Shown: in pieces, positions 1,416-22,590 of the stretch
Layout of the letters: every line of letters starts with the position of its first letter
Position numbering within the stretch: position 1 is the first letter of the stretch
IMG/VR virus record: IMGVR_UViG_3300007512_001664
Location: 62,001 to 126,000 of that record
DNA from: a virus
Length of the DNA: 64,000 bases
Direction: 5' to 3' (one strand)
Position numbers and translations under genes: made by a program
The notes under the pieces: model-generated
The model's database searches: none
What the model was told of the DNA's origin: nothing
The model's input: only the letters and a program-made list of their open reading frames with translations

Positions 1416-2396
1416 CTACCATTGGTCATTCCAATACCATCCCCATGAATCTCTTCTGCCGTAACGGACATACGCATCATATGAGCCATCATGTCCTGTA
1501 TTCCATTTGCGCATTTGTCTTGACAGTCCATGAACCCACGGGAACCATGTATATTTCTGAGCTTTGAAGTTTTCTATTTTGGTGGTGGACCTATCTTTTA
1601 GCCATTTTATGTCTACGCTGCCATATGCCCTTCTTATTCCATACTTGAAATTAGAACCATCAATGTAATATTTACCTTGCGCATTTTTTGTTCGCTCGTC
1701 CAGCCAACGCTTTGTCTCAACATGACCATCTGCGAAAGCTAATGCTGTTCCATCAATGTGATAATTACCTGGGACGTCCATGTCGTATATTTTATGGGTA
1801 GGGGCACCCTCGTTCATAACCACCCGAAAACAACCAGCGTTTATGAACTCAAATGGCATTTCTATAAAAGTAAAAATATTAGATGGATCTTCTATATCTT
1901 GTTGTTTGTGGTACACTTTCCATTCTTTATCATCTTCCACTGGCCAACCAGCCCATCCTCCTACGTGAATGTTTACGCTATAGCTCCTATGCCGGGGGAA
2001 GATCTGTCTTAACTCACCGGCCTTGTTTGTTATTCTGAGCATATCCTTATCTGCTGGGCATTTAAATACCCCAACAGAATGACCCACGTAAGGATAAAGG
2101 GGAGTCTTTTTCAGAAACTGATCTTTATTTCCATATTTAGAGATATTTAAACTACCGGGTGCCCATGTATACTTAGAACATCTCTCATACTTCCAAGAAC
2201 TTGAATATAATATTTTGTCACCGTGGTCATCGCTAAAGGTCATGTGAGCCATTTGTAGTTGTTTTTGATTACTAATGCAGGTCGCTCGTTGACTGATAGA
2301 TTTTGCCTTATTAACTGCTGGTAACAGGAGCGCTGCTAGAAGTGCGATAATAGCAATAACCACTAGTAACTCAATTAGAGTAAATCCTTTTCTCAT
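1416..2396 (-). CDS. H-X9-DG type pseudopilin-like protein 1
   Basis: Starts at [10 protein letters not shown]: a type III (prepilin-peptidase) signal with the cleavage site after Gly4, followed by a hydrophobic helix ([16 protein letters not shown]). The C-terminal half has [12 protein letters not shown], an H-X9-DG motif of the prepilin-type proteins abundant in Verrucomicrobiota, Lentisphaerota and Planctomycetota. The start at 2396 is chosen because its ATG overlaps the TGA of the upstream paralogue (ATGA), which indicates coupled translation. It ends in SWGWYWND, as the paralogue does. Expected location is the inner membrane/periplasm after processing by the host prepilin peptidase. Role in a phage unknown: pilus mimicry, adhesion or superinfection exclusion are guesses. 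Confidence 0.9.
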
Positions 2397-3385
2397 CGAT
2401 AAGGGTTCCATGTTGGATGGCTACCCCAGCTATCGTTCCAATACCAGCCCCATGAATCATACATACCTCCATCTTTTTCTCGTAGATTCCAGTCCCTATT
2501 GTATCGACCTATGCCTCCCATAACACCATACCAGCGATGATTGTTAGGATCTGGTATGATCGCTCTTTCTCTTAACCAAGCTAAGTCTCTATTATTAGGA
2601 CTGATTATCTTATCTTGATTGGTTGTTGGGTTCATTGCATCAGCTGATATATTTATTGTATCCTCTTCTAGCCATCGCTTAAACTCGACATGAGCATCAA
2701 CAAATGAAACCACTGATCCATTATTGTGATAAACACCTGGCCAATCTTGAGAGAAGAAGCTCTCACCTCCTTTGAGAGTTGGTGCTACTCTAAAGTTACC
2801 AGCATTAATTGACTGAGCTGGCATTTCAATAAAAGTAAACAACTCACTAGGGCTGTATACGTCGTCATAGGTGTGATGAACTTTAAATTGTGTATCTGAC
2901 AACCATGGCCAACCTGACCAACCACCGACAAATAGGTTTACACTATAAGAACGAGGCCTATTAACAATTTCAGGTTTAAGTGTACTAGAAATTGGTCCTG
3001 GTATACGAACAGTTGACTTATCACCTGGGCAATGATATATTCCCATACCAGCGTATGGTTTTAAAGGTGAAAAGAAAAGAGGTCGGTCGCTCTGTCCCCA
3101 TGCTCCATTGCCGCTCATACTGTCAGCGACCCATGCCCACATTCCAGTAGGTTCACCTGCCCAAGCTGATGCATAAGGAAATCTATCTTCATGATCGGCT
3201 GCAAATTCAGCGAACGCGAGATTAAGCTGTCGTTGGTTATTTATGCAAGCGGCCTGCCACCCGGTTTGTTTAGCAGAGCCTAGAGCTGGTAACAATAACG
3301 CAGCTAAAATTGCTATTATCGCTATTACTACCAGTAGTTCAATAAGTGTGAACCCCCTGGTTGCTTTCGCCGCAGGCGGGGCCAT
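2393..3385 (-). CDS. H-X9-DG type pseudopilin-like protein 2
   Basis: A 330-residue paralogue of the downstream gene. The N-terminus is [11 protein letters not shown] then [12 protein letters not shown], a prepilin-type signal with cleavage expected after Gly11. The C-terminal motif is [12 protein letters not shown], that is H-X9-DG with DG changed to DA. Both proteins share RSYSVN, VGGW.GWP, FTFIEMP and the C-terminal SWGWYWND, so they arose by tandem duplication or were acquired together. The 5' end looks more GC-rich (CCGCAGGCGGGG) than its surroundings, hinting at recent transfer from a bacterium. A full T4-type TATAAATA is 8 nt upstream of the ATG. Confidence 0.9.
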
Positions 3386-7002: not shown

Positions 7003-7965
7003 ATGAAAACGTTTAAAGATTTTTACGAAGATAATGAAATCGCAGTAAAATACCCTTTTGATTTAGGAAACATTGAACCTTCTTTTACTAATTTTCTAGA
7101 TCGGCTAGTTGACATGCGCGCGTCTATTAAAACAATATTAGATTTAGGTGCGTTTGATTTAGGTACACAGCGTACGTTTAGTACGGTTACTGATCCTGCG
7201 ATAAATGCAGCAGTAGATTTTCATGAAGCCCTACAAACATTTGTCAACAGAGATGAAAAGGGTCAAGGTCCAGGTAGTTTTCGACCAAGAGTATATGAAA
7301 CAGAAGAGTTCAAACAACACAATAATTACGATGAGTATGCACAACTAGAAAAATTAAAACGTTCAGCTTTTCGTGATAGGTTTATGGCGAGGAAGGCTGA
7401 AGATAATGAAGCACTAGCCGCAGCAGAAGCTGAGTATTCACGCATAGCGGGTGCGCAGGCAGAAACTGAGTACTGGAAAGCATATAGACAAGCTAAAGAA
7501 GAGGAAGATGAATATGTAGATATTTTACACAGGTCGCCTTTAAGTCGTGAAGCGTTAAAGAATGATGGTAGTGAGGAGTATAAAAACGCCGAAGCCGCAT
7601 ATAACCATCCTAATTTTGATGTAAATGTCTATCTTAATTTAGTTAAAAAGCAGATAGAAAATATTAGAGGAGCTCTGTCTGAAGCTGGCTCTGCCGAGAC
7701 AAAACCTTTCGGCATAATCCCCGGGGAACATTTCTTTCAATTTGGTCAATGGTTAGGATATTTTATTGAGTATACAGGGCCCGATCGCAGCAAGCCTAAT
7801 TGGCATTCATTTAAAGTAACAGTGAACGATCGCGAACGTCGTCTGTGGGTGTATGAAGATAATGGACAGCTAATGGGATGGATGAGGGGGAAAGGGACTG
7901 ATAAAATAACTATATTGGATGAGGATGATCTAGATCAATACCCAGGAATAACGAAAACACACTAA
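7003..7965 (+). CDS. Putative virion-internal protein with capsid-targeting-like leader
   Basis: 320 residues. The N-terminus MKTFKDFYEDNE resembles the T4 internal-protein capsid-targeting sequence (MKTYQEFIAE|A), although the cleavage-site residues are less perfect here. Residues ~105-215 are a highly charged, Ala/Glu/Lys-rich helical region. The C-terminal ~80 residues (FFQFGQWLGYFIEY, then a W-rich segment) look globular. No enzyme family recognised. If packaged, it would be processed by the prohead protease and possibly injected. Confidence 0.55.
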   Translation: MKTFKDFYEDNEIAVKYPFDLGNIEPSFTNFLDRLVDMRASIKTILDLGAFDLGTQRTFSTVTDPAINAAVDFHEALQTFVNRDEKGQGPGSFRPRVYETEEFKQHNNYDEYAQLEKLKRSAFRDRFMARKAEDNEALAAAEAEYSRIAGAQAETEYWKAYRQAKEEEDEYVDILHRSPLSREALKNDGSEEYKNAEAAYNHPNFDVNVYLNLVKKQIENIRGALSEAGSAETKPFGIIPGEHFFQFGQWLGYFIEYTGPDRSKPNWHSFKVTVNDRERRLWVYEDNGQLMGWMRGKGTDKITILDEDDLDQYPGITKTH

Positions 7966-14157: not shown

Positions 14158-14943
14158 ATGTCTACAATAACAGCAGGATCTCTTTTTAACAGGGAACAAT
14201 TAGACAGAGAGATAGATAGAATAAAGTCCGATACTACACTTAGCCTTACAGATCCATCGGATTCGTTAAGTGAACTAGAACAACTTCGTGATGATGCAAT
14301 TAGCGTTCAACAAAAAGTAGAACAGGGGTTAGCAGCACCTATTGACGCTGATGATGCTGCACATCGCTTAGCTCTTCTTAAATTATCAGGAGATGTAATA
14401 GCAAATATTAACGCTGAGCTTGGTGGTCAATCACCAGTCCCGGCGAGCCCTACAACTGCAGATTCTCAATGGAGGGGTACTACTCAACCAGCCGGCGCAC
14501 GAGTTAGAGATCAAGGGTATGGAGCAGATGCTGCAGTTCAACGGAACTCTGTACGAACAGACCCTTCTAATCTAACTGAAGCTTATAAAGTTATTAAGAC
14601 TAAAGAAGATATAGCATCTGGTATGAACCATAATGCTGTTGAACTTGACGTTGAACCTGATGAGGAATTAATAAAAGCTTATTATGAGCTAGTTAACTCA
14701 ATGAACGACAGAATAGAAGATACGTATGAAGATCAAAAAGAACTAGACATTCAGACTGGTGAAAATACTCCTCCTATTAAAATTAAGGTGTTAGGTTATT
14801 GTAAATCACCTCAAGTAAAGGCTGCTAAAACTCAAGAAGACGCAACTAGTACAAGTGGAGCCCTTCCCCCCACTGATAACATTCCAGGATACTCTGAAAG
14901 CTATATGAAACACTCAACCGCTAATCCTAAGAGATTCGGATGA
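14158..14943 (+). CDS. Structural-like protein with internal LTE|A site
   Basis: 261 residues, acidic, mostly disordered/helical with Ala/Pro/Thr-rich linker (~90-130). RTDPSNLTEAYK near residue 137 contains D-P-S-x-L-T-E-A, shared with the 21475 product, and L-T-E|A fits the T4 prohead-protease rule (L/I-x-E). No family recognised. First gene of the putative internal-protein block, with its own TAAATA and a strong ribosome binding site, suggesting high late expression. Confidence 0.5.
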   Translation: MSTITAGSLFNREQLDREIDRIKSDTTLSLTDPSDSLSELEQLRDDAISVQQKVEQGLAAPIDADDAAHRLALLKLSGDVIANINAELGGQSPVPASPTTADSQWRGTTQPAGARVRDQGYGADAAVQRNSVRTDPSNLTEAYKVIKTKEDIASGMNHNAVELDVEPDEELIKAYYELVNSMNDRIEDTYEDQKELDIQTGENTPPIKIKVLGYCKSPQVKAAKTQEDATSTSGALPPTDNIPGYSESYMKHSTANPKRFG

Positions 14944-15998
14944 TGGAGTCGTTTACAAAAAGTCTTGATAAAATCTATTATAATTTAGATGAATGGGGAC
15001 CGGTGTATACTGAAGCTTTATATCGAGGAGCGGATCCTGAATTAGATGATAATTATAAGAGAGGGTCAAAGGTCGGTTGGTTAGCGGGTCTAGCAGCAGC
15101 AGCTCTTTATCTCGGATACCCTGAGGTAACTAAAAGATCACCACAAGAGAATAAAGTTCATGCCGTACAAATATATAATGATGCTTTAAACAGTAAGAAG
15201 GAAAGAGATGAACTCTACGAAACAGCAAAAGAAATTGCTGCTATAATCTTTCAATTCCCTGAAGAACAAAGAGATGAAGTTTTTAACAGTGTCGGTATAG
15301 TACCGACTACTCATCGCCATGGATGGAATAGATCAAATAGAGACGGTGCTTCTGCAGAAGCACATCTTCAATCATCAATTATAAAAATTTATAATCATTA
15401 TCTAACAACAAACTGGGCAAAAAACGAAAGTACTATGAATACATTTAAAACATTTGAAAAGGAAATATCCAACTGGATAACAGAGACTGACAGCAAATTT
15501 GATCAAGATATATTTAATATCTTATCTGACATGGAAGCTGAGCTTGAGACGGGTGAATATTCTCAAGAAGAGACTGTTGATACTGTCAGTGATCGACTTC
15601 AGTCGGAATTAGGTAAAGAGATATCTACTGAAGAAGGAGCTCGTATTGAACAAAAGGTTGAAGACTTTTATGATATGCTAGGTCTCGAGGCTATCCCAGC
15701 TGATAGGCGATCAAGAGATTATTTGCTTCAACAGACACCAGATCCAGCTGGGTCATCTAAATCCTGGACCACAGGAACCAATGTAGCACCCAAAGTAGAA
15801 GGGCAACCATGGGTACATAGTGATGATGATTTTATAGAGTTTTTAAGGTGGTTAGTTAAGAAAGAAAATGACGAAGGTGATCTTCAATTCAGCGCACAAA
15901 CTATTGTTGATGTAGTAGAAAGACCAGACAAATATCAACCAGAGTACACAGAGTTTTTAGATTGGAAGCAAAGAGTAGATAATGATCCGTACCTATAA
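14940..15998 (+). CDS. Putative virion-internal protein with membrane-like segment
   Basis: 352 residues. The leader MMESFTKSLDKIYYN is aromatic like the capsid-targeting type but lacks a clean E-A end until VYTEA (~27). Then KRGSKVGWLAGLAAAALYLG (~41-60) is a basic-plus-hydrophobic segment like a signal anchor. The rest is acidic and helical, and an internal STMNTFKTFEKEI near residue 162 looks like a second leader of the same type. Function unknown. ATGA overlap with the upstream gene and TAATG with the downstream one. Confidence 0.5.
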   Translation: MMESFTKSLDKIYYNLDEWGPVYTEALYRGADPELDDNYKRGSKVGWLAGLAAAALYLGYPEVTKRSPQENKVHAVQIYNDALNSKKERDELYETAKEIAAIIFQFPEEQRDEVFNSVGIVPTTHRHGWNRSNRDGASAEAHLQSSIIKIYNHYLTTNWAKNESTMNTFKTFEKEISNWITETDSKFDQDIFNILSDMEAELETGEYSQEETVDTVSDRLQSELGKEISTEEGARIEQKVEDFYDMLGLEAIPADRRSRDYLLQQTPDPAGSSKSWTTGTNVAPKVEGQPWVHSDDDFIEFLRWLVKKENDEGDLQFSAQTIVDVVERPDKYQPEYTEFLDWKQRVDNDPYL

Positions 15999-17063: not shown

Positions 17064-18383
17064 ATGAGCTTCGAACCATTCATACAAAATAGAAGAGGAT
17101 TCTTATCTACATTAGCTAAAGGTATAGGAGTACTTGCTAGTCCAGATGCAGTAACAAATGTAGCTAAAGCAGCAGGAAGATCTACACCTAACCAACCTCT
17201 TAAAGCAGGTCTCGGTCATGTATATAGAGCACTCTTAAAAACTACTGGAGACTATCATGAGTATTCGCCGGGATTCAGTATTAAGCAAAGAGAGCATATA
17301 ACTCAGATAGCTATGGCCGCTCTACATAAAGTAGAAAAAGAGGATTGGTCAGATGAAGTTGTAGGCTTTAAGGATATGGTAGGTCACTTTCAATATTATT
17401 TTGATGAAGGAGAATCATTTGAAGATGCGTACACTGCGTTTGAAGATGATAATATGTTTGATATATATGATCTCGTAAAGAAATACGCATATGATTTAAG
17501 AACTGTCGGTTCAGTTGACACAAAAGATCTAACAGATCGTATGGTAAGAGAAATTTCAGATGGAAATGGGTTCGATGATTTTTGGGATACGCTGGCGATG
17601 AAACATGGTCCTAGAGAGCCCGGTGAACAAAGACCAGACGATAGAGATTATTTAGATAAAGATTACGCACAGGGCCCTCATATGAATAGCGCGCAAGTAA
17701 GCTTTAAAGATTTCCACAACCTTAACGAAGCATTCGATAAACCTTATTCATTTAATGTAGATAGCAGCGAGTACCCTCTAACAGTCTATAACTTTACAGT
17801 AGACGACGTCGACGATCCATATACCGTACAAGCCGTATTCGATCCAGTAGATACATTAGATCAATTTATAGAACCAGAGAGAGATAGCGCTGGTATCGCA
17901 AAGCAAGACCACCGCCAAGCGGTTAAACAGGCTGATCGATACATAGCATTTAAGTATCCCAGCGCTATTAAACCAGAATACGCTAAAGTTATTGAATATG
18001 GATTTTCAGATAAAGGATCTGGATCAATCGAGAAAACCGGGAAAGGCGGCCATAGTGCTACTCGTGTCATTGGTACTGTCATACAAATAGCTCAGCATTA
18101 TATGATTACCAGAGAGCCCAAAGTCTTACTCTTTACTGGCGCTAAAGATGAGAATAGAGGCCCTATCTATACTAAACTAACTCACTTGGCATTCAGATCT
18201 CTTAAAGATGGTGCACTGTCTGGTTATAACTACTTCATAGATGACCACCTTAAGGGAGATGTAAGATTTTGGATCTATAAAGAAAAGGATATACCTTACC
18301 TCGGTGACGAGAACTTCCAGGAATTCTTAACTAATGATCGATGGCATCAGCAAAACCCTGGCCTTGATAATGTATACGCATAA
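17064..18383 (+). CDS. Two-part putative injected protein with twin-arginine-like N-terminus
   Basis: 439 residues. Residues 1-9 (MSFEPFIQN) resemble the aromatic leader, and R10-R11-G-F-L-S-T-L-A-K-G-I-G-V-L-A follows the Tat pattern RR-x-F-L plus a hydrophobic core. Residues ~40-205 are acidic and unrecognised. At ~213-225 V-S-F-K-D-F-H-N-L-N-E-A-F restarts a T4-type capsid-targeting leader, and from there to the end is a separate globular domain (GHSATRVIGTVIQIAQ, then LLFTGAKDENRGPIYTKL) that looks like a stand-alone phage protein. The gene therefore appears to be a fusion of two leader-bearing proteins. Enzymatic role unknown. Confidence 0.6.
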   Translation: MSFEPFIQNRRGFLSTLAKGIGVLASPDAVTNVAKAAGRSTPNQPLKAGLGHVYRALLKTTGDYHEYSPGFSIKQREHITQIAMAALHKVEKEDWSDEVVGFKDMVGHFQYYFDEGESFEDAYTAFEDDNMFDIYDLVKKYAYDLRTVGSVDTKDLTDRMVREISDGNGFDDFWDTLAMKHGPREPGEQRPDDRDYLDKDYAQGPHMNSAQVSFKDFHNLNEAFDKPYSFNVDSSEYPLTVYNFTVDDVDDPYTVQAVFDPVDTLDQFIEPERDSAGIAKQDHRQAVKQADRYIAFKYPSAIKPEYAKVIEYGFSDKGSGSIEKTGKGGHSATRVIGTVIQIAQHYMITREPKVLLFTGAKDENRGPIYTKLTHLAFRSLKDGALSGYNYFIDDHLKGDVRFWIYKEKDIPYLGDENFQEFLTNDRWHQQNPGLDNVYA

Positions 18384-18968
18384 ATGATACCTTTTAAACA
18401 GTATATTGCTGAGGCAAATCCTAAGTCTCTCATAGTTGTTGATGTTCAACCAGTCTATACTCATCTGATGCAAGATGAAGTAACTGCGATAACAGAGTTC
18501 ATAAACACAAAAGCTGAGAGAGTGCTAGCATATTTTAACGGTGAAGATGCTGGTGAGAGAGATACTTTAGAAGATGTTAAGCAGTGGTACCTTGATAATG
18601 GACTAGAGGAAGAGAGCTTAGCTAAGATAAACTTCCAAGAGAAAACATATGCATACCTTAGAGGGTGGATGGACGATGTGGAGGAGAGGGATATTATAAA
18701 GGTAGTCAGATATATGGTGACTAATAGAATACAACAGTCTGACCAGATAGGTAATAGTGCTATAGTTGAATTATTAGGAATAGATGTAGCTAGGGAAGTT
18801 GATGATATTGATCCTATATACATTCCTGATATTGATCTTTCATTAATTAAACAGTATAACAAATCGTATATTGGTGGTGGAGGGCGCCATGAATGTTTAA
18901 AAGAAATTACTCTTATGATGAATGCATTCAATATTAAATACAAATTAATCAACAATTTCATATATTAA
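18384..18968 (+). CDS. Isochorismatase-like protein with capsid-targeting-like leader
   Basis: 194 residues. The leader MIPFKQYIAEA closely matches the T4 internal-protein leader, with the protease site I-A-E|A. SLIVVDVQPVY then gives the family's first catalytic Asp (V-D-x-Q), and the C-terminal G-G-G-G-R-H-E-C-L-K-E-I places a Cys where isochorismatase-like hydrolases carry the nucleophile. The family hydrolyses small amides or vinyl ethers, but many phage members have no known substrate. Translated directly after the 17064 gene. Confidence 0.65.
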   Translation: MIPFKQYIAEANPKSLIVVDVQPVYTHLMQDEVTAITEFINTKAERVLAYFNGEDAGERDTLEDVKQWYLDNGLEEESLAKINFQEKTYAYLRGWMDDVEERDIIKVVRYMVTNRIQQSDQIGNSAIVELLGIDVAREVDDIDPIYIPDIDLSLIKQYNKSYIGGGGRHECLKEITLMMNAFNIKYKLINNFIY

Positions 18969-19171: not shown

Positions 19172-19768
19172 GTGAAGTCATTTATCGATTTTATTAACGA
19201 GGCAGGAAAGTTTCCTACAGTTACATTAACTCAACCGTATTCGCAATCGCGTCCCGGAGCAGGAAAGCGGTTCCGTAATAAGAAAGACCCCAAAAGAGCC
19301 AATCAACAACAAGCTCTAAGAGATCAAGGCTATCGCTGGGATAAAGAAAAGAAAAAATGGGTTAAAGGCACTGTTCCTGTCAGTGCATCAACCGTGGAGT
19401 CTAAACAAGCCAAGTACATTGAAGAAGCCAAAAGAGGTCGTGAGAGTTATGAGACACGTAACCCAGATTTTGTTGATGCTTTATTAGATATTTTTTCTGC
19501 CCTCCAAGATCGAAACATAGAAAAAGGAATGACGTTAAATCGTTTTACAAATCAAGACGTTATTAAACTAATCGATGATCATGAAGTTTATGGTATTAAT
19601 GGCACTAATCCATGGCCTTCACAACATAAGGAGCGTTATATATCTAATCTTCGTCGTCTACTTGGAGTTGAAACACCCGGAAGAAAGCAAAGAAAAGATA
19701 CAGGAAAAGAGCAGGGTACTCATGATACAGGTGATGAATGGTCAGATTGGCTTAAACCGGAAGCATGA
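19172..19768 (+). CDS. Putative virion-internal protein with capsid-targeting leader
   Basis: 198 residues, GTG start fixed by the TAAATA 5 nt upstream. MKSFIDFINEAGKF is the clearest T4-like leader in the window, with the I-N-E|A protease site. Then a basic Gln/Lys/Arg region includes LRDQGYRWDKEKKKWVK, a short W-containing motif found in phage proteins, and an all-helical second half follows. The mature protein is strongly basic, fitting co-packaging with DNA. ATGA overlap with the next gene. Confidence 0.6.
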   Translation: MKSFIDFINEAGKFPTVTLTQPYSQSRPGAGKRFRNKKDPKRANQQQALRDQGYRWDKEKKKWVKGTVPVSASTVESKQAKYIEEAKRGRESYETRNPDFVDALLDIFSALQDRNIEKGMTLNRFTNQDVIKLIDDHEVYGINGTNPWPSQHKERYISNLRRLLGVETPGRKQRKDTGKEQGTHDTGDEWSDWLKPEA

Positions 19769-21141
19769 GAGATACAGAAGCACAACTAATTTTTGAGACT
19801 TACGTAGAAGCAAAGGATGTAAGTCGACGAGATTTCTTTAAGCTATTAGGTAGAGGTGCTGCAACAGTCGCGACAGTTCCTTGGACTAAACTACTATCAG
19901 CTCCTAAGTTAGCTGCAGCAGTCACAGCACCATTTAAGATTGGTGCAGGTACTATACTTAATCCTCAGGCTCTGCATTGGTACTACGTTCGTAAGTTTGT
20001 TAACAAAGCAGAGGAAAGCGGTCTCACTCCAGTAGATGTAACAGATGAAAGGCATTACGAGGACCCAGTCGACGAGATATCTTTTGAAGCATTTGAGTGG
20101 GTTTCCAAGAATGTAATTAATATGTATGTTGATGATCGAGATCATGCTGTAGATAGAGAAGGAGACACGATAGCACCCACTATGGCTGAGTTGATCAATG
20201 ATCACGGATGGGATGAAGAGCATTTTATAGATGATCCTAATTTTCCGGAATGGGCGAAACCTCTTCTCACTAAAGATGAAGAAGATATGACTGATGAAGA
20301 GGAAGAAAAATATCAGAACTTAATGAATTCAAAGTGGTTTGATAAGCAGATGGTGATTAACTGGGATGGTGAGCAGGGCCATGGAGCTGATGAAGAGGTA
20401 GAAGAAATGCTAAGAAATTGGACTGGGTGGCATCACAAGTCGCCAGGGTCAGGTGATGTCGGGGGCCCCCTTCATGGTGATGAACTTATTACTACTGTCT
20501 TTGATTACATTGTAGATCTCAATCGCAAACGTAATGATGAGGGAAAGTTTATGGACATTAATGAGATAATGAAGATGGACTTTAAACAAGAGTTCTTACC
20601 TGGTGTTGTAAAGTATGCGAGAGAGCTGGCTGTAGCTCGATCAACTCGGTTGACAGGAAACCAACAGAGACAAGCAGGGCAAGATTTTCAAAAAGCTAAA
20701 GACGAGCTACAAAAAGACTACCTACCTAAAAGACCAGGCCAACCAGCTGAGTGGGATGATGTACATCCGGATGTTGAATGGTGGCACGAAGGTGATTTTA
20801 AATGGTGGGAGCGTCGGTTTGATGATGATGTTATTAATAGTGATAAGATCGAACAATATAAGGTTTTTGCTGATAAAATAATACAGAATCCTTTCGAAGA
20901 CGGCTTACTGTGGCCAACCACTGGGGAACCAGCTTATAGCCCTGAAGAAAGCAAAGCGATAATTAAAAAACTTAAACAAGAAGCACATGATTGGTTGAAA
21001 TGGTATGAGATGACAAAGGATAGTAGAAAGCCTAATCAAGCACATATCAAACATCCATATGGAGTAGGTAGACCTCAGAGCGGTTTACAAACAGCTAGTA
21101 CTAAGCCTACATTTAAACAGTTCTTTTTAATAAATAATTAA
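19765..21141 (+). CDS. Putative injected protein: AQLI leader plus Tat-type signal
   Basis: 458 residues. The type-B leader M-R-D-T-E-A-Q-L-I-F-E-T has a candidate cleavage site I-F-E|T. V-S-R-R-D-F-F-K-L-L-G-R-G-A-A-T-V-A follows at ~24-41: an exact Tat consensus S-R-R-x-F-[FL]-K with hydrophobic core, then SAPKLAAAVTA as a possible signal-peptidase site. The rest (~60-430) is acidic and Trp-rich (W-W-H-E-G-D-F-K-W-W-E), unrecognised. The last residues PTFKQFFLINN resemble the aromatic leader. No enzyme family visible. Confidence 0.6.
   Translation: MRDTEAQLIFETYVEAKDVSRRDFFKLLGRGAATVATVPWTKLLSAPKLAAAVTAPFKIGAGTILNPQALHWYYVRKFVNKAEESGLTPVDVTDERHYEDPVDEISFEAFEWVSKNVINMYVDDRDHAVDREGDTIAPTMAELINDHGWDEEHFIDDPNFPEWAKPLLTKDEEDMTDEEEEKYQNLMNSKWFDKQMVINWDGEQGHGADEEVEEMLRNWTGWHHKSPGSGDVGGPLHGDELITTVFDYIVDLNRKRNDEGKFMDINEIMKMDFKQEFLPGVVKYARELAVARSTRLTGNQQRQAGQDFQKAKDELQKDYLPKRPGQPAEWDDVHPDVEWWHEGDFKWWERRFDDDVINSDKIEQYKVFADKIIQNPFEDGLLWPTTGEPAYSPEESKAIIKKLKQEAHDWLKWYEMTKDSRKPNQAHIKHPYGVGRPQSGLQTASTKPTFKQFFLINN
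21131..21136 (+). promoter_or_regulatory. Late-type promoter element (TAAATA)
   Basis: 6 nt before ATG 21143. Confidence 0.55.
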
Positions 21142-21474: not shown

Positions 21475-22269
21475 ATGAAGTATGATACAGAAGCACAATT
21501 AATTTGGGAAGCCGCGCAAAAGAAGAGGTCACCTGTTGAAGAAGGTAAACCACACAATTGCGCTACACACGTAGAGCATTCTAAGTGGGGTAAAGGTGAA
21601 TGTATTTCAGAGAGCCATGCTGAACCAGATGAAAATGGTAATGTAGCCTGGTATAATGTTGTATTTGAACACGGCACTGAGACAGTCAATACTGCTGATG
21701 TTAAAGTGCTTAAATCTAGTCATCATATGCACGCTAGTCATAATCCTATTAAAATTAGTAAAAATCGAGGTGAATATGCTTTGCGAATGAGAGCTGATGG
21801 ATGGCAACGTTGTCCGCATAATTGTATTCCAGATGATGGTAATCCTCCTACATATCGACATGTCGATGGTGTGCCTTGTCCAGAGTGTGAAGGAAAAGGA
21901 TATGTTACTTCAGACCATATAAAATCTACCGATAGGCCAGTGCAAGTGCCACCAAACCCCAAAACCGATGAGTTCGGTCGAGCTAAAGGTGATATTGGCC
22001 ATATGTATGCTTCTACTAAATCAGATCCAAGTAAATTAACAGAAGCAAGCCCAGATGATAATTTTGCCGCTAGCCAGTCAATGATATCAGCAATATATAA
22101 AGAAATTGATGAGTATATGACTCGAGCAGGAGCCGAGGATTTAAAAGATAACGTACTTGCTATTGTTAAGCAATATTTGGAGGGGCCGATAATATCGACT
22201 CCACCTAGCAGTAGCGATTACAGTGGCAAGGCAATTGCAAATCCTTATACACCTTACCCGACAGGATAA
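21475..22269 (+). CDS. AQLI-leader protein with Tudor/SH3-like and zinc-knuckle segments
   Basis: 264 residues. Leader M-K-Y-D-T-E-A-Q-L-I-W-E-A with I-W-E|A. Residues ~33-80 (H-S-K-W-G-K-G-E-C ... W-Y-N-V-V-F-E-H-G) follow the pattern of the SH3/Tudor-like end of UvrD/PcrA helicases. RCPHNC ... CPECEGKGYV is a four-Cys knuckle like those of DnaJ. SDPSKLTEAS at ~178 is a second candidate protease site. The C-terminus (KEIDEYMT...EDLK.NVLAIVKQYL) is shared with the 22860 product. A modular protein of unknown role. Confidence 0.6.
   Translation: MKYDTEAQLIWEAAQKKRSPVEEGKPHNCATHVEHSKWGKGECISESHAEPDENGNVAWYNVVFEHGTETVNTADVKVLKSSHHMHASHNPIKISKNRGEYALRMRADGWQRCPHNCIPDDGNPPTYRHVDGVPCPECEGKGYVTSDHIKSTDRPVQVPPNPKTDEFGRAKGDIGHMYASTKSDPSKLTEASPDDNFAASQSMISAIYKEIDEYMTRAGAEDLKDNVLAIVKQYLEGPIISTPPSSSDYSGKAIANPYTPYPTG
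22099..22179 (+). repeat. Duplicated KEIDEYM module, copy 1
   Basis: Encodes KEIDEYMT ... EDLK.NVLAI.KQYL; closely similar DNA at 22965-23057. Confidence 0.75.
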
Positions 22270-22274
22270 TAGCC

Positions 22275-22589
22275 ATGAAAGATAAAGACGCACAACTAAT
22301 GATGGAAGCCTTACAAAAGCAAAAAGTAAATGAAGCTGACTATTATGAAGATGACAATAGTACTGACACATATTTACAGTGGAAACTCGCAGAAGACAGA
22401 TGGCATGAAAAATTAGCTGACTTAGAACCTCTTGATGAGCTTGCAGCGCGCTATGGTGGTGAAGATATTAATCCAGCTGGTGGTAACATAAAGGGTGGTA
22501 ATATCATTGATTGGCTAGCTAAACAGATCAACCAACCAGGTTCGGACTTTGTTGGTTATTTTGAGCAGCAACTTATGAAAGAGCAATAG
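22275..22589 (+). CDS. Small AQLM-leader protein
   Basis: 104 residues: leader M-K-D-K-D-A-Q-L-M-M-E-A-L-Q-K-Q-K-V-N-E, then an acidic region. The second half (DELAARYGGEDINPAGG, NIIDWLAKQIN) is helical. No known family. The first 45 nt are nearly identical to the starts of the 22591, 22860, 23354 and 23786 genes. One-nt spacing to the next gene. Confidence 0.6.
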   Translation: MKDKDAQLMMEALQKQKVNEADYYEDDNSTDTYLQWKLAEDRWHEKLADLEPLDELAARYGGEDINPAGGNIKGGNIIDWLAKQINQPGSDFVGYFEQQLMKEQ

Positions 22590-22590
22590 T

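Follow-up and report, generated by a model that had tools for sequence, protein, structure and literature searches.

A capsid-targeting-like leader ahead of a twin-arginine-like segment in two unrelated proteins of a T4-like phage hints at virion cargo for the host envelope

In the genome of a T4-like phage, two proteins that are unrelated beyond their N-termini carry a short leader resembling the capsid-targeting sequence (CTS) of phage T4, followed by a segment resembling a twin-arginine (Tat) signal, the type of signal used by bacteria to export folded proteins. The combination of leader and Tat-like signal stands up statistically and is repeated within one block of genes in the window, the term used here for the whole 64,000-nucleotide stretch analysed, which represents bases 62001-126000 within a 200.8-kb viral record. 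The CTS reading is well supported by the sequence, use of the Tat pathway is plausible but unproven, and the two unrelated proteins hint at phage delivery of cargo meant for the host cell envelope.

The first protein, referred to as the 17064 product, is encoded by an ORF at 17064-18383 (+) and comprises 439 residues, with the coordinates and N-terminus (MSFEPFIQNRRGFLSTLAKGIGVLA) that had been given in the earlier note. It starts with MSFEPFIQN followed by RRGFLSTLAKGIGVLAS, the longer N-terminal stretch being MSFEPFIQNRRGFLSTLAKGIGVLASPDAVTNVAKAAGR, and is composed of the following parts:

17064..17090, + strand: class I leader MSFEPFIQN, CTS-like, with Asn replacing the P1 Glu (aligned to the T4 ipII/ipIII CTS MKTYQEFIAE)
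17091..17171, + strand: Tat-like signal RRGFLSTLAKGIGVLASPDAVTNVAKA with an inferred signal-peptidase-like A-K-A-A site (Tat-profile rank 2, hydrophobicity)
17064..17696, + strand: N-terminal RR module, residues 1-211 (searches of IMG/VR and INPHARED gave no relatives)
17697..17729, + strand: internal leader VSFKDFHNLNE with a predicted prohead-protease site, LNE222-A223 (free-standing counterpart in contig L002)
17730..18380, + strand: conserved AFDKPY domain (alignment with the L002 and L003 proteins)

Residues 212-439 represent a conserved domain that is encoded alone in two other viral contigs, L002 and L003, where its identity to the 17064 product in the alignment is 63% and 41%, respectively, and where the N-terminal RR module is absent altogether. 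The free-standing domain starts with a class I leader in L002 (MKFKDFYNLNE-AFDKPY) and with a class II leader in L003 (MNKDTQLIFETYVNE-AFDKPY), in both cases joined at NE-A. Judged from this alignment, the 17064 product is a two-module fusion in which the leader of the AFDKPY domain has become internal, so that the prohead protease could split the protein at LNE222-A223, or the domain could be made as a separate product from the in-frame ATG at 17682. The AFDKPY domain gave no convincing match in a PDB sequence search. PHROG 6387, considered as a bridge from this phage to known phages, was a weak candidate that was not found in five records. The fusion, the second, internal leader and the T4 counterpart of the leader were absent from the earlier note and were found here.

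Many genes in the block between 14 and 24 kb start with short N-termini that are related to one another and can be divided into class I leaders (MKSFIDFINE-A, MIPFKQYIAE-A, MSFEPFIQN and MKTFKDFYEDNE) and class II leaders (M(R/K)DKDAQLMMEA and kin); MRDTEAQLIFETYVE is a leader as well. Class II leaders, such as that of L003, end in the class I core, namely aromatic, x, x, aromatic, hydrophobic, x, E-A. The leader genes accompanying the 17064 gene are as follows:

7003..7965, + strand: leader protein MKTFKDFYEDNE (sequence, leader-pattern count)
14940..15998, + strand: leader-like start MMESFTKSLDKIYYNLDEW, then a hydrophobic stretch without RR (sequence)
18384..18968, + strand: sibling leader protein MIPFKQYIAE-A (sequence, leader-pattern count)
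19172..19768, + strand: sibling leader protein MKSFIDFINE-A (sequence, leader-pattern count)
19765..21141, + strand: second leader plus Tat-like protein MRDTEAQLIFETYVEAKDVSRRDFFKLLGRGAATVATVP, 458 residues (TIGR01409, PF10518, TIGR02811, HybO; top Tat-profile score)
21475..24052, + strand: run of class II leader genes M(R/K)DKDAQLMMEA (sequence, leader-pattern count)

With gene calls made mechanically as the longest non-overlapping ORFs, 13 of 256 called starts carry a leader pattern, compared with 2 of 628 internal Met residues (Fisher P = 5e-6, post hoc), and this enrichment at starts over internal Met indicates that the leader is non-random. A similar run of leader-like starts ahead of diverse bodies exists in a 91.8-kb viral record (G013), where L252/L254 contain leader genes with unrelated bodies, including an apparent peptidase and one protein in which MRDKDAQLIFE is followed by strongly hydrophobic helices. 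Cyanophage P-TIM68 has one leader, MKSFTSFFTE-A, on a cytidyltransferase. Additionally, two lysozymes, at L006:12591-13451 (with LysM) and L002:264-908, show an aromatic leader-like start, a Gly/Ala-rich hydrophobic stretch and a signal-peptidase-like end, and may be SAR-type endolysins or leader-tagged. A nucleotidyltransferase-like protein at L006:13474-14493 bears the leader-like ESFKQYFEQ near residue 50, behind a Lys-rich N-terminus, which is possibly another internal leader.

The T4-like character of the phage is indicated by a major head protein approximately 31% identical to cyanophage gp23 and by a prohead protease, Peptidase_S77 (PF03420), at G000:7015-7467 (104 bits, above cut-off). 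Within the window, minus-strand contractile-tail-type genes, assigned by eye, come after the leader-gene block. The T4 internal head proteins IPI, IPII, IPIII and Alt bear a CTS and are cleaved by gp21. In the T4 record, ipII and ipIII start with MKTYQEFIAE-A and ipI with MKTFKEF, and the class I leaders match this CTS position by position, sharing the 10-residue aromatic form with F/Y at 4 and 7, I8, E10 and a cut before A; the diverse small cargo genes and the S77 prohead protease in the genome are further likenesses. Residues 4 and 7 of the CTS set targeting and residues 8 and 10 processing, and Asp10 keeps targeting while blocking processing (PMC9026906). All four positions are kept in MKSFIDFINE-A and MIPFKQYIAE-A. 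In MSFEPFIQN, F3, F6 and I7 (register -1) correspond to Y4, F7 and I8 of T4, and the leader ends in IQN, without the Glu of the cleavable (I/L)xE that is present in siblings 18384 and 19172 and at the internal LNE222-A. Because F, F and I are kept but Asn replaces Glu, the 17064 leader is predicted to target without being trimmed, and the protein may be packaged in untrimmed form. Taken by itself, packaging by the CTS is probable.

Several features nonetheless distinguish this phage from T4, including the far larger number of leader genes, their arrangement in an array, the extended class II leader, the missing Glu of the 17064 leader, and the two cargo proteins in which the leader is followed by RR-x-F and a hydrophobic segment. 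The ejection proteins of SPN3US and phiKZ likewise have head-targeting propeptides that the prohead protease removes, but these propeptides are mostly longer than 100 residues, unlike the leaders here, and no report of a Tat-like segment in them was found (PMC5694885). At the C-terminus of the 19765 product, PTFKQFFLINN (window 21095-21138) resembles a class I leader; T4 Alt bears a C-terminal propeptide too (PMC9026906).

The motif RR.F[L/F] is found 3 times in the 62,804 residues of the phage, against 0.66 expected from composition, and two of the three lie no more than 11 residues from a leader, in genes 2.7 kb apart, where 0.0015 would be expected (P ~1e-6, post hoc). This agrees with the earlier argument that two leader-RR proteins within 3 kb make chance less likely. 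The description of these proteins as two independent bodies was likewise borne out, since a single BLASTP comparison of the 17064 and 19765 products gave E = 0.02 over the first ~57 residues and nothing else convincing; the possibility that they share mature domains was rejected on the same result. No relatives of the 19765 product were obtained for its RR module in INPHARED or IMG/VR, and a PDB sequence search with this protein returned nothing.

A Tat profile was built from 18 PVC Tat signals, comprising 14 from TIGR01409 hits in genomes and 4 DUF1552 homologues; a profile trained on DUF1552 alone was dropped as too family-specific. Among 56,916 phage proteome positions, 19765 ranks first, its score of 27.3 falling within the leave-one-out range obtained for known Tat signals (20.3-37.1), and 17064 ranks second (18.5), just below that range, both exceeding the start of a DUF1552 protein of the same phage (15.6); shuffled N-termini reach 18.5 at a rate of 0.015 per genome. 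Near its N-terminus, the 17064 product has an RR and, behind it, a weakly hydrophobic stretch. This segment is the most hydrophobic 19-residue window of the protein, with a mean KD of 1.05, a value similar to that of DUF1552 (1.19) and low by the standard of membrane anchors. Judged by eye, A34-K35-A36-A37 would serve as a putative signal-peptidase site. The likeness to Tat signal peptides (TIGR01409/PF10518) thus extends over S/N-RR-x-F-[L/F]-[K/S], a weakly hydrophobic h-region and an A-x-A-like end, the difference being the CTS-like leader that precedes the signal in both proteins.

Curated models yield a less uniform picture. The 19765 product scores 15.3 bits with TIGR01409, just under the cut-off of 16.7, and 9.1 with PF10518 (cut-off 22.7), and also matches TIGR02811 and the HybO model, whereas the 17064 product is recognised by none of these models. 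The curated models are insensitive for this phage, because even its DUF1552 start remains below the PF10518 cut-off, at 13.9. The earlier Tat reading of 17064 is partly supported, by the profile rank and the recurrence in the block and not by the curated models; whether its RR segment works as a Tat signal is an even call, and for 19765 such a function is rather more probable than otherwise.

It is quite improbable that a degenerate leader and a fortuitous RR have simply come together in an orphan ORF. Although the N-terminal module is an orphan and the statistics are post hoc, chance would have to account for the leader enrichment at starts, the RR-behind-leader statistic and the Tat-profile ranks, as well as an intact frame of 439 codons whose C-terminal domain is conserved at 63% identity.

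The main rival explanation, a serious possibility although short of probable, accepts CTS-tagged head proteins but regards the RR and the modestly hydrophobic segment as an ordinary amphipathic or membrane-active helix rather than a Tat signal, one that might touch the scaffold or the DNA, or insert into the membrane during ejection. A leader followed by a hydrophobic stretch without RR is seen in the 14940 product and the two lysozymes, so that the general design may be a leader plus a hydrophobic segment, with the RR incidental; charges within the stretch (K19 in 17064; K26 and R30 in 19765) and the failure of Tat models to match 17064 are in keeping with this explanation. It is opposed by the position of two RR.F[L/F] motifs exactly behind leaders, by their ranking first and second in the proteome by Tat-profile score, and by the matches of 19765 to several Tat families.

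The DUF1552/HXXSHH protein (PF07586, 263 bits), present as one copy in the phage genome, is encoded outside the window (G000:C1 ~128970-130214 = L009:3071-4315), two genes from a terminase-like gene. Like other Tat passengers of this known family, it has a plain N-terminal RR signal, MNRRQFIGALG, and lacks the leader that distinguishes the 17064 and 19765 products. Over a conserved stretch, it is 50-61% identical to proteins of Verrucomicrobiota/Planctomycetota, a resemblance from which the phage host is inferred to belong probably to this group. By family and signal, it appears to be a host-type Tat passenger aboard a T4-like phage, so use of Tat by the phage would not be odd in itself. Such a protein also fits an alternative that we consider unlikely, in which the 17064 and 19765 products are synthesised in the infected cell as Tat substrates destined for the periplasm, where they might serve in envelope modification or superinfection exclusion, with the leader acting as the n-region and nothing packaged. 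Tat n-regions vary in length, and the cleavage Glu is absent from the 17064 leader; this alternative, however, leaves unaccounted for the match of the leader to the CTS, its sharing with many siblings that do not look exported, and its occurrence on free-standing domains in other phages.

The reading we prefer, a packaged and injected protein with a Tat-type export signal, is tentative, and short of probable, when taken as a whole chain. The 17064 product would be one of the CTS-tagged internal head proteins of the phage, drawn into the prohead core by its N-terminal leader, as T4 internal proteins are. Partial cleavage by the prohead protease, at LNE222-A223, would then free the AFDKPY domain from the N-terminal module, which would keep its leader together with the twin-arginine-type signal because Asn replaces the cleavable Glu. 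After ejection with the DNA into the next host, the RR signal would direct the module to the host Tat translocase, which would move it into or across the inner membrane. For the 19765 product, trimming after IFE11 or YVE15 would produce a textbook short n-region, TYVEAKDVSRRDFFK or AKDVSRRDFFK, ahead of SRRDFFK. The general arrangement suggested by both proteins, tandem addresses on capsid cargo consisting of a CTS propeptide and then a host Tat signal, unmasked in 19765 by protease trimming and leading to export of the ejected cargo to the envelope, is somewhat doubtful.

The CTS-tagged proteins that T4-like phages are known to inject have their action in the cytoplasm. A Tat address on such cargo, if true, would allow virion-delivered proteins to reach the periplasm or membrane as well, by folded-protein export, and envelope-acting virion effectors could then be sought by a rule, namely a CTS with a sorting signal behind it. 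The results also suggest that phages of uncultured hosts use the CTS code too, in the form of swappable leaders arranged as an array, in which case sequence alone could suffice to predict virion cargo. Searches of the open-access literature yielded no account of virion cargo exported by Tat. Pattern searches of IMG/VR gave no intact example: for a class I leader plus RRxFL, a broad pattern matching at least 120 stretches, no credible in-frame case appeared among the matches listed; for MKxFxxF(hydrophobic)xE plus RRxF[L/F], one of the 40 complete DNA hits was in frame and was broken by stops; and for a class II leader plus RR there were zero hits. The arrangement is accordingly seen only in this genome, twice, as far as these patterns, which represent common rather than all leader forms, can capture it.

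Two further groups of genes were observed in this genome. Two tandem pseudopilin-like proteins, at window positions 1416-2411 and 2393-3385 (-), both exceed the N_methyl (PF07963) cut-off, and the second also shows weak similarity to DUF1559; proteins of this type are common in Verrucomicrobia/Planctomycetes and unexpected in a phage genome. In L011 and L012 (G000 165-200 kb), a long run of glycosyltransferase-like, methyltransferase-like and sugar-nucleotide genes, assigned by eye, constitutes a glycan gene set that is unusually large for a phage.
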